Origin: Pusillimonas caeni
Lineage (GTDB): Bacteria; Pseudomonadota; Gammaproteobacteria; Burkholderiales; Burkholderiaceae_B
Length of the DNA: 64,000 nt
Assembly: GCF_003545815.1 (NCBI RefSeq)
Contig: NZ_PDUW01000002.1
Coordinates: 62,001 to 126,000 of the forward strand
Direction: 5' to 3'
The translations under genes were made by a program, and so were the position numbers. Positions within the stretch are counted from its first letter, which is position 1, and each line of letters starts with the position of its first letter. Positions 1-54,772 of the stretch are shown in pieces. The notes below the pieces were generated by a model that saw only the letters and a program-made list of their open reading frames with translations, did no database searches and was not told where the DNA came from.

Positions 1-621
1 ATTGGTGGTGCCGACTTCGACCAGGCGGGCCCCCGCCCGCTGCATGATGTCGGGAATGCGGAAAGCGCCGCCGATCTCAACCAGCTCGCCGCGCGAAACG
101 ACGACTTCACGCCGGTTGCCCAGGGCGTTGAGCATCAACAGCACGGCGGCGGCATTGTTGTTGACTACCGTGGCGGCCTCTGCGCCCGTCAGCTCGCACA
201 GAAGATCGTCTATGAGGTCGTCGCGGTCGCCGCGCCGGCCCGTCGACAGGTCGAACTCGAGGTTGGCGGGCGCCTGCATGGCCTGGACCACCGCCTGTAT
301 CGCCGCATCGGGCAGCAATGCACGGCCCAGGTTCGTGTGCAGCACCGTGCCGGTCAGATTGAAGACGGCGCGCAGGCGGGGGCGATCCGCTTCGCTGAGT
401 CGGCTGCGCGCCTGTTCGATCAACTTCCCGTCGCGCAAGGCGTCGGCGGCAAGCTCGCCCTGCAGGGCCTGCCGGCGCAAATCGGCCAACAACTCACGCA
501 GCACGTCCAGGACGCGGCTGCGACCGTACTGGGCAACGAGGTCGGCGGCCGAGCCCAGCAGGCGTTCGACCGAAGGGATATCGGAAGCGCCCGCCGGCGC
601 AGCATGAGGCGTCGCCCCCAT
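1..621 (-). CDS. selA: L-seryl-tRNA(Sec) selenium transferase, N-terminal part (cut by window edge)
   Basis: SelA is the PLP enzyme that converts seryl-tRNA(Sec) to selenocysteyl-tRNA(Sec) using selenophosphate. Reading the minus strand from the ATG at 621 gives [20 protein letters not shown] and onward. It contains the family blocks [38 protein letters not shown] and [20 protein letters not shown], which are diagnostic of SelA. About 207 of roughly 470 residues are present. The PLP lysine region and C-terminus lie beyond position 1. The start codon overlaps the fdhE stop (TGATG), so the two are translationally coupled. The gene sits downstream of a formate dehydrogenase whose large subunit needs selenocysteine, which explains the linkage. 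selB is expected just outside the window (inference). Confidence 0.93.
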
Positions 622-1553
622 CAGGACTCCGGGCCCTGCCACAGCAGCGGATTGCCGCTGGCTCGCGAGTAGCCTTCTTCGCCCATCAGCATGTCGAGCG
701 TGAGGCTGGCCAGGTCGTCGGCAACCGGGTCGACGTTGTAGTCTTTTTCCTGGTAGAAGATTTTGCGGTAGCTGTGGCAGTCGTCGCAGGATTCGGCCTT
801 GATGCCCTCGGGACCGCCCTCGACGGAATGAAAGGCGATGGACTTGGTGCCTTCGCAATGCGAGCAGGTAACCCGCACCAGATGCCATTCGGACGAACAC
901 AGCGAGCAGCACAGGTAGCGGCAGCCGTCGGCCGACCCGCCCACGCGCACCACGCTGGACACCGGCAGGCTGCCGCATAGGGGACATACGCCGAAGGGGC
1001 TGACCACCGGCAGCTTGCTGGTGTCGAAATCGATGGCCAGGCTGGTCCAGTACACCTGCAAGGCCGCCATGATGAAGGGCGCCGACGCCCCATCGATCTC
1101 GGTGTCGCGCTCTGCCAGGATGGCGTCGGCCTGGGTTTCGATGGAATCGGGGTCGGAGTCCAGGCGCTCGCGCAGTGAAGCCGCCACCGCGCGGGCCTGC
1201 TCGGGCACCTCGGCCTGCCCGGACATGTGGTCGGCCAAGGCCTTGAGGATGTCGCGCCATTGCGGCGCGCGGCTCCAGCCCATGGCTTGCAAGGGCGGCA
1301 TGCCATGCGCCTGGGCCCGCGAGATTTGCTCTTCGCCGGCCGAGGGCACCGCGCAATGTTCAAGCGCGCGATGCTGCGCGTCGACCAGATGCGCCATCAG
1401 GGCCAGATAAGCCGAGGCGGGGTGGTCTTGCGCCAGTTGCCGCAGACGCGCCGCGCGGTCGGTAAACACGGAGGCACGCACAGGGATGCGCAGCCGTGGA
1501 ATGGACGTATGGTCCAGCGATTCGATTTCGCCGCGCTCGAGAATTCGCTGCAA
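621..1553 (-). CDS. fdhE: Formate dehydrogenase accessory protein FdhE
   Basis: FdhE is a cytoplasmic zinc/iron-binding accessory protein needed for maturation of respiratory formate dehydrogenases. The product shows four CxxC pairs in its second half (CPLC, CSLC, CSHC, CDDC), the rubredoxin-like metal knuckles typical of FdhE. It also has the N-terminal pattern [21 protein letters not shown] chose the TTG at 1553 because AGGAG lies 6 nt upstream and the protein then begins like other FdhE proteins ([11 protein letters not shown]). An in-frame ATG at 1586 would add 11 residues but has no ribosome binding site. The gene is preceded by the cytochrome b subunit and overlaps selA by one base. Confidence 0.93.
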
Positions 1554-1642
1554 GGCATTCTCCTGAAAAACATGGCTGCCCAGCATGGAGGCCGGGCAGC
1601 CATGGCAGACTGCGATGCCCCGAGGGCATCAATGAATAGACG

Positions 1643-2287
1643 CTACTTGCGGGACGGAGCCCCTCGCACCTGGCGGAACCACGCGCGATGGTGTTTCCAG
1701 GCCCAGCCCGGAGTGACCGTGCCGCGGGTCATGGCCCGGACCGAACCCTTGACCCAGAAGCCCGCATAGATATGCACAATGATCGCGCAAATCATCACAA
1801 AAGCAAAGATAGCGTGCAGAACCGAGGCGAGCTGGATGAGCCACAAGCTGAAATAGAGGCCGAAAAATTCGCGCCACATGACGATGCCCGTAAGCAGCAG
1901 CCCCAGCATGAGCACGATCAGCGCAAAATACAGCACTTTCTGCCCGGCGTTGTAGCGGCCCACCTCGGGCAGCCTGTCTTCGCGATTGTTGACGACGTCG
2001 TCGAACTGCCGGAGCCATTGCCTGTCGTTCCTGTCCATCTTGTTGTGCCGGAACATGCGCACAGCAAGAATGAAGAACAGCAGGAACATGAACACGCCCA
2101 CGAAGGGATGCAGGATGCGTGTCCAGGTACCGCCGCCGAACAGGTTGGTCAGCCAATAGAAGGCCGGATGGAACAGCGCCAGCCCCGACAGCGCCAGCAC
2201 GATGAACGCAATGGCGACGATCCAGTGGTTGGCCCGCTCGCCCGGCGTATAGCGCTCGATGAGCCTGGTTTTTTTGACGTCATTCAT
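1643..2287 (-). CDS. fdoI: Formate dehydrogenase gamma subunit, cytochrome b556
   Basis: This is the membrane anchor of formate dehydrogenase-N/O type enzymes. It carries two b hemes and passes electrons from the Fe-S subunit to quinone. The 214-residue product starts [22 protein letters not shown] and has four hydrophobic segments. Candidate heme-ligand histidines are visible in [14 protein letters not shown] and [17 protein letters not shown]. The ATG at 2287 is preceded by CGGAGG at 6 nt and overlaps the fdhB stop by 8 nt. An in-frame upstream extension to 2389 lies inside fdhB and was rejected. fdoI and fdnI paralogues cannot be separated by eye; the symbol is a family name. Confidence 0.93.
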
Positions 2288-3200
2288 GAGTAGCCTCCGA
2301 TTCGCGTTGGCTTTCGTCCGCCGCCCGGCGCTCGTCCTCTTCATCGACTTCGTTCGGGCCGACCCGGATGTAGTGGAAGAAGCCGGCAAGCGCCGTCAGC
2401 GCCATGGCGGCGACCCCCAGCGGTTTGGCCATGCCCTTCCAGAGCGACACCATGGGACTGATGGCGGGGTCTTTGGGCAGCTCGTTGTACAGCCCCGGCT
2501 TGTCGGCGTGATGCAGCACGTACATGACGTGGGTGCCGCCCACGCCGGCCGGATCGTACAGGCCGGCATTGTCGAAGCCCCGCGACTTGAGGTCGACGAC
2601 GCGGTCGTCCGCGTGCTTGATCATGTCTTCTTTGGTGCCGAACACGATGGCGCCCGTGGGACAGGTCTTGACGCAGGCTGGCTCTTGCCCCACCGCCACG
2701 CGGTCGGAACACAAAGTGCACTTGTACACTTTGTCGTCCTTCTTGGAGATGCGCGGTATGTCGAAGGGGCAGCCGGTGATGCAATAGCCGCAGCCGATGC
2801 AGTTCTCTTGGTGGAAGTCGACGATGCCGTTGTTGTACTGCACGATGGCGCCCGGCGAAGGACAGGCCTTGAGGCAGCCCGGGTCTTCGCAGTGCATGCA
2901 GCCGTCCTTGCGGATCAGCCACTCGAGATCGCCGGCGTCGTTCTCGTACTCGGAAAAGCGCATGACCGTCCACGAGTTCTCGGTCAGGTCCATGGGGTTG
3001 TCGTACACCCCCACGTTGCTGCCGATTTCGTCCCGCACGTCATTCCACTCCATGCAGGCTACCTGGCATGCCTTGCAGCCTATGCACTTGGTGGTGTCGA
3101 TGAGCTTTGCCACGCCGCCGCCGACGACCGCATCGCGCTCGCTCGGCATGGGGGTCGTGGTCGCGGAGCGCCTTTTGATATCCAATGATTGCAATGCCAT
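2280..3200 (-). CDS. fdhB: Formate dehydrogenase beta subunit, four [4Fe-4S] ferredoxin-type protein
   Basis: This is the electron-transfer subunit linking the molybdo/tungstopterin subunit to the cytochrome b anchor. The 306-residue product carries four cysteine-rich cluster motifs: [35 protein letters not shown], and CTLC continued by [10 protein letters not shown]. It ends in a single membrane helix ([17 protein letters not shown]) followed by an acidic tail, as in FdnH/FdoH. AGGAG stands 6 nt before the ATG. It lies 9 nt downstream of fdhA and overlaps the gamma-subunit start, so the three subunits form one transcript. There is no Tat signal of its own; by family knowledge it is co-exported with FdhA. 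Confidence 0.95.
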
Positions 3201-3209
3201 GGCTTGCTC

Positions 3210-6200
3210 CTATGCTTTCTCGACGTTGACGAGGAAGGACTTGAACTCGGGCGTCTGCGTGTTGCCGTCTCCCACGGGCGGGGTCAGGGTATTGGCCAGG
3301 AAGCCGGGCTTGGCCAGGCCGACGAACCCCCAGTGAATCGGGATGCCCACCTGGTGCACTGTCTTGCCTTCGACCGTCAGGGCCTTGATGCGCTTGGTGA
3401 CCACCGCCACCGCCTTGATGTGGCCGCGGTTGGAGGACACCTTGACGCGCGCGCCGTTGGCGATGCCCAGTTCCTGGGCCAGGGCCTCGCCGATCTCGAC
3501 GAACTGCTCGGGCTGCAGAATGGCATTGAGCTCGACGTGCTTGGTCCAGTAGTGGAAGTGCTCGGTCAGGCGATAGGTAGTGCCCACATAGGGGAAGTCG
3601 GCCACCTTGCCCATGCTTGCCAGGTCGTCCTTGAAGACGCGCGCCGCCGGGTTGCTGACGGCGCGTTTTTCTTCAGGGTAGACCGGGTTGTAGCCCAGCG
3701 GATTCTCGAACGGCTCGTAGTGCGTCGGGAACGGCCCTTCGGTCATGCCCTTGCGGGCGAAGAAGCGCGCCACGCCTTCGGGATTCATGATGAACGGCCC
3801 CATGCCGTCGAGCGGGTTCTCGTCCACCTTGAAGTCGGGCACGTCGGCCCCGACCCAGGCCTTGCCATCCCAATGGATGAGGTCGTGGCGCGGGTTGAAC
3901 GGCTTGCCTTCGAGGTCGCAGGACGCACGGTTGTACATGATGCGCCGGTTGGCCGGCCAGGCCCAGGCCCAGTTCAGCGTCTGGCCGATGCCGGTCGGAT
4001 CGCTGTTGTCGCGACGGGCCATGAGGTTGCCCGCCGGCGACCAGCATCCGGCGTAGATCCAGCATCCGCACAACGTGGAGCCGTCGTCCCGCAGTTCGCC
4101 GAAACCGGCCACCTGCTCGCCCGCCTTGCGCAGTACGCGCGTCGGGTCCTTGGGATCGACCAGATCGACCCTGGCGCGCCCGCTGTACTCTTTGGCCAGT
4201 TCTTCGGCCGTGGGGTTGCCGGGGTTCGCGTACGGCCACCAGAGATTGACGATGGGATCGGGGAAGGTGCCCCCGTCTTTCTCGTACATGTCACGCAGGC
4301 GATTGAACAGCAGCGCCATGATTTCGATGTCGCTCTTGCCTTCGCCCGGCGGATTGGCGCCCTTCCAGTGCCATTGCAGCCAGCGGCCGGAGTTGACCAG
4401 CGCGCCTTCCTCTTCGGCAAAGCAGGTGGTGGGCAGGCGAAAGACTTCGGTCTGGATGGATGCGGTGTCGACATCGTTGTGCTCGCCGTAGTTGCGCCAG
4501 AACTCGGAGGTTTCCGTGACCAAGGGGTCCATGATGACCAGGAACTTGAGCTTGGAGAAGGCGTCGATGAGCTTGGCCTTGTACGGCGCCGCCGCCAGCG
4601 GGTTGAAGCCCTGGCAGATGTAGCCGTTCATCTTGCCCTGATGCATGAGCTCGTAGACCTGCAGCATGTCGTACGGACGGTCCATCTTGGGCAGGTAGTC
4701 GTAGCCCCAGTTGTTGTCCGGACGCGCTGCGTCGCCCCACCACGCCTTCATGAGACTGACGTGGAACTTGCTGTAGTTGCGCCAGTAGCTGAGCTGGTTG
4801 GGGCGCAAGGGCATCTGCGTGCGGTTGGCGATGTAGTCTTCGTAATTCTGCTCGGCGTCGTTGGGCAGGGTGAGATAGCCCGGCAACAGGTTGGACATCA
4901 AGCCGATGTCGGTCAGGCCCTGGATGTTGGAGTGGCCGCGCAAGGCGTTCATGCCCCCGCCCGGAATGCCGATATTGCCCAGCAGCAGCTGCATCATGGC
5001 GCCGGTGCGGATCATTTGAGACCCGATGGAGTGCTGGGTCCAGCCCAGGGCGTACATGATGGTGCCGGCGCGATCCGGCGTGGCCGTGGAGGCCAGCATC
5101 TCGCACACCTTCAGGAACTTGTCTTCGGGGGTGCCGCAAACCTTCGACACCATTTCGGGGGTGTAGCGGGAATAATGCTGCTTGAGCATCTGGTAGACGG
5201 AACGCGGATGCTTCAGGGTGGGATCGACCCGCACAAAGCCGTCGTCGTCCAGTTCGTAGTCCCAGGATGCCTTGCTGTAGGTGCGATTTTCTTCGTTGTA
5301 GCCCGAAAACAGGCCGTCCTGGAACGCGAAGTCTTCGCGCACGATGAACGGCATATCGGTGTAGTTGCGCACATATTCGTGCTGGATCTTGTCGTTTTCG
5401 AGCAGGTAGCGAATGACCCCGCCCAGGAAGACGATGTCGGTTCCGGTGCGTATGGGCGCGTAGTAGTCCGCCACGGATGCCGAGCGCGTAAAGCGCGGAT
5501 CCACGACGATGAGCTTGGCCTTGTTATGGGCCTTGGCTTCGGTGACCCATTTGAAGCCACAGGGGTGCGCCTCGGCGGCGTTACCGCCCATGATCAGCAC
5601 AATATCGGCGTTCTTGATGTCGACCCAATGGTTCGTCATCGCTCCACGGCCAAACGTCGGGGCAAGACCTGCCACCGTCGGACCATGTCAGACACGAGCC
5701 TGGTTGTCGAATCCAAGTGCGCCAAGGCTGCGAATGACCTTGTGCGTAATGTAGGCAACCTCGTTGGAGCTGGCCGACGCGGCCAGCATGCCGGTGGTCA
5801 GCCAACGATTGACCAGCTGGCCTTTTTCGTTGCGCTCGATGAAGTTGGCGTCACGGTCTTCTTTCAGCAGCTTGCTGATGCGGGTAAGCGCGTCGTCCCA
5901 AGAGATACGCTCCCATTTGTCGGAGCCGGGGGCGCGATACTCGGGGTATTTCAGCCGGTTGGGGCTGTTGATGAAGTCGACGAGGCCCGCGCCCTTGGGA
6001 CAGAGCGTCCCGCGGTTGACGGGGTGGTCGGAATCGCCTTCGATGTGGACAATGCGCGCGGTGGCGTTTTTTGCGCCATCGCCCAGACCGTACATCAGGA
6101 CCCCGCAAGCCACTGAACAGTATGGACAGGTGTTGCGCGTTTCTGTCATGCGCGCAAGCTTGTATTGGCGAACCTCAGCCATTGCCGGGCTGGGGGCGGC

Positions 6201-6278
6201 CCCCAGCAGCGTAAGACTGGAACCCGCCAACGTTGCCCCTGTCACCTTGAAGAATTGACGTCGACTCATGTTGACCAT
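3210..6278 (-). CDS. fdhA: Formate dehydrogenase alpha subunit, selenocysteine-containing (in-frame UGA at 5690-5688)
   Basis: This is the catalytic subunit that oxidises formate to CO2 at a bis-MGD molybdenum or tungsten centre. Read through one UGA, the gene encodes 1022 residues, near the 1015 of E. coli FdnG. Residues 5-12 (SRRQFFKV) form a twin-arginine signal. A [4Fe-4S] site follows (CPYCSVACGV ... LCPKGAGL). Codon 197 is TGA in the context NQARV-U-HGPTVAGLAPTFG, exactly where FdnG/FdoG have selenocysteine. A SECIS-type hairpin follows at once. The remaining 825 residues run collinear with FdnG to the C-terminus (QTPEFKSFLVNVEKA). GGAGAG precedes the ATG. Automatic gene callers would split this into two pieces at the TGA. 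It heads the fdhA-fdhB-gamma-fdhE-selA operon. Confidence 0.95.
5645..5690 (-). promoter_or_regulatory. Bacterial SECIS element directly downstream of the fdhA UGA
   Basis: On the minus strand the TGA (5690-5688) is followed by an outer stem, CATGGTC (5687-5681) with GGCCGTG (5651-5645), two of the seven pairs being G-U. An inner stem pairs G5676-G5675 with C5660-C5659 and GGCA (5673-5670) with TGCC (5664-5661). U5674 is bulged and the loop is GGTCT. The bulged U and GGUCU loop are the SelB-recognition features of E. coli fdhF/fdnG SECIS elements (established knowledge). Folding was done by hand. Confidence 0.9.
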
Positions 6279-6479: not shown

Positions 6480-7418
6480 ATGCCCTCCGCCGCTCCGTCC
6501 CTGCCTCCCGTTTCACTGCACCGGCTCAAGCTCAGGCCCCTGCTGATCTTCGAACGCGTGTTCAATTCGCCTTCCATTGCCAGTGCCGCGCGCGAGCTCA
6601 ATATGTCGCAGTCGGCCGTCACCAAGGCCATACAGGAACTCGAAGCCAGCCTGGACGTGCCCCTGTTCGAGCGCAGCAACCGGGGCATCGTCCCCACCTG
6701 CTACGGCACACTGCTGGGCGAGCGCGTGCGCACCGTGATCTCCGAACTGCGCTATCTCACCGACGAATTGAATTCATTCCGCTCCGGCGAAAGCGGCCAC
6801 GTCATCGTCGGCACCCTCATTTCGGCGTCGGCGCAACTGCTGCCCAAAGCCATACTCAAGCTCAAGAAACAGTATCCCGACGTGCTGGTCACTGTCCGCG
6901 AGGGCCCGAATGAGCCGCTGTTCCGCGATCTGGCCAATGGAGAGCTGGATATCGTCGTGGGCCGGCTGCCCGAAGAAAACCTGCCCCTGATGCGCCGCTT
7001 CCCCTTCAGCCACACCGTGCTGTATCCGGACGAAATCTGCGTCGTGGCGGGCCGCAGGCACCCCTTGGCCGAACAGAAGGGCCTGAGGCTGCTCGACCTG
7101 CTGGACTTCCCGTGGGTGCTTCCTTTGCAGGAGTCGCCGACTCGCGCCATCACTGAGAAACTGCTGCACGATTCGGGCCTGAGCATGCCCCGCAACATTA
7201 CCGAGTCGCTCTCGTTGGTCACCAACATCGGGCTGCTGCAGGATTCGGCCTCTATTCTGTTCATGCCCCTGGCCGCGGCGCGGCATTTCCAGCGGCTCGG
7301 GCTGGTGGCGATTCTTGACGTGGGGCAATTGGGCAAGTTCGGCGACGTGGGCTACACCATACGCGCCGACCGCCTGCCCACACCGGCTACTCAGCGCTTC
7401 ATAGACTGCCTGCGCTGA
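6480..7418 (+). CDS. LysR-type transcriptional regulator
   Basis: This is a 312-residue regulator. The N-terminal winged HTH spans about residues 14-75 (LLIFERVFNSPSIASAARELNMSQSAVTKAIQELE condensed over this range), followed by the linker helix and a type 2 periplasmic-binding effector domain. The pattern HVIVGTLISASAQLLPKAI with EICVVAGRRHPLA resembles the GbpR/PcaQ-like subgroup. It is divergent from the formate dehydrogenase operon (201-bp gap) and upstream, in the same direction, of nbaC-nbaD. Either could be its target; divergent placement favours fdhA, while the aromatic-catabolism neighbour also fits a LysR activator. The ligand is unknown. Confidence 0.88.
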   Translation: MPSAAPSLPPVSLHRLKLRPLLIFERVFNSPSIASAARELNMSQSAVTKAIQELEASLDVPLFERSNRGIVPTCYGTLLGERVRTVISELRYLTDELNSFRSGESGHVIVGTLISASAQLLPKAILKLKKQYPDVLVTVREGPNEPLFRDLANGELDIVVGRLPEENLPLMRRFPFSHTVLYPDEICVVAGRRHPLAEQKGLRLLDLLDFPWVLPLQESPTRAITEKLLHDSGLSMPRNITESLSLVTNIGLLQDSASILFMPLAAARHFQRLGLVAILDVGQLGKFGDVGYTIRADRLPTPATQRFIDCLR

Positions 7419-7470
7419 GGGGTGGCCGGCCGGTCGTCGAACCGCGCCCGGCTATCGAAAACAGGAATAG

Positions 7471-9179
<1,709 letters not shown>

Positions 9180-52918: not shown

Positions 52919-53005
52919 GGTGGGATGCCCGAGTGGTTAAAGGGGGCAGACTGTAAATCTGTTGGCCTTGCGCCTACGTTGGTTCGAATCCAACTCCCAC
53001 CACCA
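52919..53005 (+). tRNA. tRNA-Tyr (anticodon GTA)
   Basis: The acceptor stem GGTGGGA pairs with TCCCACC, followed by A and encoded CCA. It has a long variable arm (class II), and the anticodon loop CTGTAAA gives GTA at 52953-52955. The T loop is GGTTCGAATCC. It is first of a tRNA-Tyr/Gly/Thr-tuf transcript. Confidence 0.97.
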
Positions 53006-53138
53006 GAGCTTACCCGCAGGCGCTGCCACGCATGCCCGGGCCCGGAGCCCGGGGCGGCTATAGGCAGAAACTCGGTGTCTGGCATGGCTGGCGGTATCAA
53101 ACCCCGGAAAGAACAGCGAGAAAGAACGGAATCCCCAT

Positions 53139-53212
53139 GCGGGTGTAGCTCAATGGTAGAGCAGAAGCCTTCCAAGCTTACGACGAGGGTTCGATTCCCT
53201 TCACCCGCTCCA
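53139..53212 (+). tRNA. tRNA-Gly (anticodon TCC)
   Basis: The acceptor GCGGGTG pairs with CACCCGC, with discriminator T and encoded CCA. The anticodon loop CTTCCAA gives TCC at 53171-53173. The T arm GGTTCGATTCC is standard. Confidence 0.97.
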
Positions 53213-53229
53213 GTTTTTCGAGGCTCGTT

Positions 53230-53253
53230 TTTTTACAGGGCAACCTGTAAAAA
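53230..53253 (+). other. Perfect hairpin between tRNA-Gly and tRNA-Thr
   Basis: TTTTTACAGG-GCAA-CCTGTAAAAA forms a 10-bp stem with a GNRA-type tetraloop. It may be a processing signal of the tRNA precursor or partial attenuator; no T run follows it. Confidence 0.6.
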
Positions 53254-53279
53254 GGCGGGTTTTTACGGTAAAGAAGTAT

Positions 53280-53354
<75 letters not shown>

Positions 53355-53402
53355 CTCACTACATTCATTTTTGTTGCTTAATTCCACAGTCAGGAGTCAG
53401 CC

Positions 53403-54596
<1,194 letters not shown>

Positions 54597-54613
54597 GTTT
54601 TAAAATGCAACAA

Positions 54614-54638
54614 ACGGACGGAGCCGCGCTCTGTCCGA
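54614..54638 (+). other. Hairpin after tuf
   Basis: CGGACGGAG...CTCTGTCCG (9 pairs, one G-U) with a short loop, 17 nt after the tuf stop. No T run follows, so it may be a 3'-end stabiliser or processing site before tRNA-Trp rather than a terminator. Confidence 0.45.
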
Positions 54639-54696
54639 GCAGTAAACGGGTCCTGTATCGCACCCTGTCACAGCACAGGACTCCTCAGCAGGTTAT

Positions 54697-54772
54697 AGGG
54701 GTATAGCTCAATTGGCAGAGCGTCGGTCTCCAAAACCGAAGGTTGTAGGTTCGATTCCTACTGCCCCTGCCA
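54697..54772 (+). tRNA. tRNA-Trp (anticodon CCA)
   Basis: The acceptor AGGGGTA pairs with TGCCCCT (one G-U), with discriminator G and encoded CCA. The anticodon loop CTCCAAA gives CCA at 54730-54732. It lies between tuf and secE, the conserved proteobacterial position. Confidence 0.97.

Follow-up and report, generated by a model that had tools for sequence, protein, structure and literature searches.

A selenocysteine-type formate dehydrogenase-N gene with adjoining selenocysteine-decoding genes in Pusillimonas caeni

In Pusillimonas caeni, the gene for the large subunit of a respiratory formate dehydrogenase is interrupted by an in-frame TGA, which raises the question of whether this codon breaks the gene or is read as selenocysteine (Sec). 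The locus lies in a stretch of 64,000 nucleotides (C16:62001-126000 of the assembly), hereafter the window, and comprises the following features:

3210-6278, minus strand: fdhA/fdnG, formate dehydrogenase-N alpha subunit (TIGR01553, 1kqf_A, translation with TGA as U)
5688-5690, minus strand: UGA read as selenocysteine, codon 197 (single in-frame TGA)
5635-5693, minus strand: SECIS element, Rfam RF01989 SECIS_3, UGA included, with a bulged U and a GGUCU loop (Rfam match, fold and pair counts)

Under the standard reading, the TGA separates an upstream open reading frame (ORF; 6278-5688, 196 aa) from a downstream ORF (5675-3210, 821 aa) with a GTG start at 5675, which, as the first-pass annotation anticipated for conventional gene calling, gives two genes. 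This is of consequence for annotation, since a large respiratory enzyme is cut in two right at the catalytic residue. Translated with TGA as U, fdhA encodes a product of 1022 aa with U197 in the motif NQARV-U-HGPTVAG and no further stops. This product is a full-length equivalog match to TIGR01553 (residues 4-1021, 1490.6 bits, cut-off 814.2), and its residues 3-1022 align with E. coli FdnG (1kqf_A, 1538.4 bits). In this alignment, residue 197 stands opposite the X, a non-standard residue, of 1kqf_A, in agreement with the earlier placement of the TGA (5690-5688, minus strand, in frame) at the FdnG selenocysteine position. The N-terminal MSRRQFFK is a Tat-like motif. Furthermore, the genome contains four other stretches that match FdhA, none of which has an internal stop.

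The UGA is immediately followed by a hairpin that matches SECIS_3 over the full length of the model (5693-5635, 79.5 bits, E 3.7e-17, gathering score 63), with 16 of 16 model pairs being standard. The first-pass annotation had located a SECIS at 5645-5690, coordinates that are right and fall within the Rfam element (5635-5693), and this score bears out the SECIS predictor check that it had proposed. Among the 150 of 2224 first-look candidates that were scored in the 4.4 Mb genome, no other SECIS_3 match was reported. With the U of the UGA numbered as 1, the minimum-energy fold of 5693-5640 contains a bulged U at +17 and a five-base GGUCU loop with a G-U at +23/+24, as had been described from the sequence. 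In E. coli fdhF, the corresponding bases are the ones contacted by SelB. Bacterial SelB is described in an excerpt of PMC11881835 as touching bulged-out bases and the terminal loop. The folding energy of the hairpin is ordinary for its composition (z = -0.86; 38 of 200 shuffles fold equally well or better), and stability was therefore dropped as evidence for the SECIS, which is supported by the SECIS_3 match together with the comparative data.

In addition to fdhA, the same strand encodes further subunits of the enzyme, an accessory protein and the machinery for Sec decoding:

2280-3200, minus strand: fdhB, iron-sulfur beta subunit (TIGR01582, 474.1 bits, cut-off 334.7)
1643-2287, minus strand: fdhC/fdnI, cytochrome b gamma subunit (TIGR01583, 187.6 bits, cut-off 115.85; searched as 1643-2302, with the start at 2287 chosen afterwards)
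621-1586, minus strand: fdhE, formate dehydrogenase accessory protein (TIGR01562, 280.7 bits, cut-off 187.65)
1-621, minus strand: selA, 5' part (TIGR00474, 597.2 bits; continues past the left edge of the window to C16:61200)
C16:61203-59206, same strand as fdhA: selB (beyond the window; family confirmed by NCBIfam)
C16:59196-59101, same strand as fdhA: tRNA-Sec (beyond the window; 73.2-bit match and ARAGORN)
C16:59036-57975, same strand as fdhA: selD (beyond the window; family confirmed by NCBIfam)

The cassette has the order fdhA-B-C-E-selA-B-C-D on one strand, partly outside the window, and with the chosen starts selA overlaps fdhE by a single nucleotide and selB by four (ATGA). Both the beta (FdnH) and the gamma (FdnI) subunit expected of a formate dehydrogenase-N are encoded alongside fdhA, with matches to TIGR01582 and TIGR01583 above cut-off. 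The genome contains selA, selB, selC and selD; selA, selB, tRNA-Sec and selD all score above their cut-offs and are contiguous downstream of fdhA, and the families of selA, selB and selD were confirmed with NCBIfam. The search for selB, selC and selD suggested by the first-pass annotation, which had named their absence as grounds for rejection, thus recovered the complete set directly downstream; selA, whose 5' part occupies positions 1-621 of the window, had gone unmentioned. The tRNA-Sec gene is also called as tRNA-SeC with the anticodon tca by ARAGORN. As the tRNA-Sec model rings weakly elsewhere, with 13 matches in the genome (of which a second one, C18:333562, narrowly exceeds the gathering score of 47 at 47.9 bits) and further ones in 14 of 14 control genomes, we rely on the 73.2-bit, ARAGORN-supported match. 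The genome also encodes a tRNA 2-selenouridine synthase, so that SelD probably serves two pathways.

The codon and the hairpin were compared across 124 loci, consisting of 80 loci (the best 80 of 593 confirmed) and 44 from a set of 121 genomes (30 plus 14). The 44 include the window's own gene (L102) and several copies each from G038 and G069, and some of them may duplicate members of the 80. The codon was readable in all 124 loci and the UGA at the catalytic position is kept in 119 of them, the other five having a Cys codon (3 TGT, 2 TGC); this 5/124 is not a population rate, as the 14-locus set was picked to contain five near-full-length stop-free homologues. Each TGA locus has only this one stop within the aligned stretch. 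The same-genus loci L103 and L104 (genomes G001 and G002) have TGA and no other stop, and not the Cys codon with a disruption elsewhere that had been named as counter-evidence. The betaproteobacterial host proposed from the sequence fits the best matches (Achromobacter, Bordetella, Alcaligenaceae), although the best 80 of 593 loci include Gammaproteobacteria too.

All 119 TGA loci contain both the bulge U and the loop G-U, whereas the five Cys loci keep the bulge U and lack the G-U, with C at +23 and G (four loci) or A (one locus) at +24. Position +24 is the third position of a Gly (GGU) or Ser (AGU) codon, and coding alone therefore does not explain the fixed U. Furthermore, five TGA loci at comparable distance (L141, L142, L147, L148 and L149; 58-62% identity) keep the loop G-U that is absent from the Cys loci (57-63%). 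In the 14-locus set, the SECIS_3 gathering score is passed by nine of nine TGA loci (69.3-87.1 bits) and by none of the five Cys loci (37.6-53.1 bits); because Cys homologues reach such values, the score was dropped as purely RNA evidence. Third-position conservation in the 119 loci averages 0.878 over the 14 codons past the UGA versus 0.678 in the flanks (172 codons), and, with shared ancestry uncorrected, this 14-codon segment ranks 4 of 187, the top-ranking one starting three codons later.

Pairing was counted in 51 distinct TGA sequences. In 51 of 51, every cell of the upper helix is paired (100%), and three of its pairs are doubly changed (in 4, 5 and 10 sequences); for the lower helix the figure is 87.8% of cells. 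Over the whole structure, 20 cells are doubly changed versus a shuffled mean of 3.0, a value matched by 0 of 500 shuffles, and sliding the partners lowers pairing to 27-51%. Two of the five measures, doubly changed pairs (4; 12/500 shuffles) and further pair types (10; 105/500), are not clearly above the shuffles. The Cys loci (n = 5) pair in 78.8% of cells (upper helix 74.3%) and beat the shuffles on percentage paired and on covariation score (0.206), with 3/500 each. Pairing and covariation alone were thus not decisive as proof. As the Cys loci keep 11-14 of the 16 pairs and the TGA loci 13-16, the ranges overlap and pairing alone does not separate the two groups; what tells them apart is the sequence of the loop together with the SECIS_3 score. 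The pairing in these five Cys sequences may be a SECIS remnant or else an effect of coding constraint; SECIS-like remnants after Cys codons are reported in an excerpt of Zhang et al. 2006 (PMC1794560).

Across the 121 genomes listed, the window's own among them, selA occurs in every genome that has a near-full-length, single-TGA fdhA match (36 of 36) and in none of the five with a near-full-length stop-free (Cys) match (59-64% identity). The Fisher test table is 36/0 versus 12/73, with shared ancestry ignored. The 48 genomes with selA comprise these 36, two with partial matches (G040 and G101, set aside) and ten with neither (G029, G048, G052, G074, G076, G081, G083, G097, G107 and G117), of which G076 and G052 have a TGA, possibly at another codon position, within weaker matches (40% and 35%, respectively). 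G090, which lacks selA and has a stop-free match of 44-45% in two pieces, was excluded from the five Cys genomes. The 0.9 Mb genome G040 encodes selA, and its FdhA match (C1:139086-142129) is broken into two pieces that overlap each other (residues 4-660 and 644-1021), which suggests that this fdhA is frameshifted.

Gene neighbourhoods were called by tblastn (1e-10), with SelB hits below 33% identity removed to avoid EF-Tu, in the 68 of the best 80 of 593 loci that have at least 8.5 kb beyond fdhA. In these, fdhE was called in 68 loci, fdhB and fdhC in 67 each, selB in 66, and selA and tRNA-Sec in 63 each; fdhB, fdhC, fdhE, selA, selB and tRNA-Sec are all on the same strand in 60 of the 68. 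selD was called in 25 of the 68 loci, on the same strand in 18 and on the opposite strand upstream of fdhA in 7. Two loci in which a TGA-containing fdhA occurs with fdhB, fdhC and fdhE (L094 and L096) had no selA, selB or tRNA-Sec called within 10 kb on either side. In Oligella urethralis (L069, 9892-12957), the genes downstream of a Sec-type fdhA are fdhE, selA, selB, tRNA-Sec and selD, and fdhB and fdhC were not called at the same tblastn threshold. The fdhA of G024 (C9) has coordinates identical to those of L069, and selA starts approximately 1.1 kb past fdhA; the membrane and iron-sulfur subunits seem to have been lost from this site.

The window also contains a divergent LysR-type gene (6480-7418, plus strand) followed by a gene for 3-hydroxyanthranilate 3,4-dioxygenase (6480-8187 in total, plus strand). 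The LysR-type gene was considered and rejected as a selenium or formate regulator: it scores 91.6 with the selenium-metabolism LysR model (cut-off 250), and its top NCBIfam match, PcaQ, is below cut-off (181.7 versus 303.8). Among the best 80 of 593 loci, some of which have little upstream sequence, none is listed with a match to it at 40% identity or more. As it precedes the dioxygenase gene, it was set aside, and the pair seems to have no connection with the formate dehydrogenase cassette. Further along the window, positions 52919-54772 (plus strand) carry tRNA-Tyr, tRNA-Gly, tRNA-Thr, a translation-GTPase match (C16:115439-116572), which is probably EF-Tu, and tRNA-Trp. A second translation-GTPase match is located at C16:144221-145339.

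Three alternatives to a Sec-encoding fdhA were weighed. If the TGA were a nonsense mutation that had turned fdhA into a pseudogene, or if products of 196 aa and 821 aa were made separately, the two ORFs of the standard reading and the GTG start of the second at 5675 would agree with this. We regard this as very improbable, given the same TGA codon as the single stop of the aligned stretch in 119 of 124 loci, a SECIS_3 match above the gathering score, and the presence of selA in all 36 genomes whose fdhA is of the near-full-length TGA type. Since bacteria read through UGA to some extent, a near-cognate tRNA could in principle insert another amino acid and yield a selenium-free protein; this explanation is less probable still, since it is opposed by a dedicated, contiguous Sec machinery and by the occurrence of the loop G-U in every TGA locus and in none of the Cys loci.

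The hairpin itself could be a by-product of protein conservation that carries no RNA signal, as Cys homologues keep 11-14 of its 16 pairs, obtain SECIS_3 scores of 37.6-53.1 bits and show covariation above the shuffles, and as its folding energy is not unusual. However, the third-position U at +24 is fixed in all TGA loci, double changes occur within a fully paired upper helix, third-position conservation is raised exactly there, and the loop G-U persists in TGA loci that are just as distant as the Cys loci, where it is missing. In addition, the remnants reported after Cys codons (PMC1794560, in excerpt) offer another source for the pairing in Cys homologues, and we assign the by-product explanation the same minute probability as near-cognate decoding.

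We are nearly certain that fdhA is a working selenoprotein gene, with the gene order, the codon, the hairpin, its conservation and the presence of the machinery all observed here. The model that follows for Sec insertion, export, the metal and the route of the electrons draws on what is established for FdnGHI and the Sec pathway. The ribosome would translate fdhA as far as UGA 197, where SelB with Sec-tRNA(Sec) would bind the downstream hairpin at its bulged U and at the G-U of its loop and insert selenocysteine. Sec197 would then coordinate the molybdenum (or tungsten) cofactor in a predicted full-length, Tat-exported formate dehydrogenase-N, whose electrons would reach the quinone pool by way of FdhB and then FdhC, a cytochrome b. 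Selenophosphate would be supplied by SelD and Sec-tRNA by SelA, and FdhE would aid maturation, all of which are encoded in the cassette.

The SECIS loop might also shape the protein. Codon +7 past Sec (window 5669-5667) encodes Gly in 98 and Ser in 21 of the 119 TGA loci, and Ala in five of five Cys loci. As the Cys loci are few and possibly of common ancestry, this pattern is no more than suggestive; we lean slightly towards the hypothesis that a need for (G/A)GU in the loop dictates Gly or Ser at this codon. If true, a residue near the active site would be fixed by RNA and not by catalysis, with Ala appearing after selenium use is lost.

Like FdnGHI of E. coli (1kqf), the enzyme has an alpha subunit that is homologous end to end with the non-standard residue at the same place, and the beta and gamma subunits are present here too. 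In contrast to E. coli, where the fdhE, selA, selB, tRNA-Sec and selD genes are dispersed, these genes share the cassette in P. caeni. The hairpin is a full-length match to Rfam RF01989 (SECIS_3) and differs from it in nothing material. The first-pass annotation overrated the novelty of the locus: an excerpt of Zhang et al. 2006 (PMC1794560) already describes selA-selB-selC with an adjoining Sec-containing fdhA in Alpha- and Betaproteobacteria and Pseudomonadales, the same linkage as here, and proposes that the linked genes can move jointly by horizontal transfer. Horizontal transfer between Pseudomonadales and Betaproteobacteria is likewise reported in part of PMC5029168, and a 2005 study (PMC1273633, in excerpt) credits Burkholderia, along with other species, with selA, selB and selC. 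The P. caeni cassette differs from those of Zhang et al. 2006 in that selD is attached downstream as well, and selD is seldom contiguous with selA-selB according to the same 2005 excerpt. The identification of a Sec-encoding fdhA with adjoining Sec genes is correct, ordinary and already known in kind, and the locus, which neatly illustrates the linkage of Sec-decoding genes to fdhA, leaves existing knowledge unchanged.
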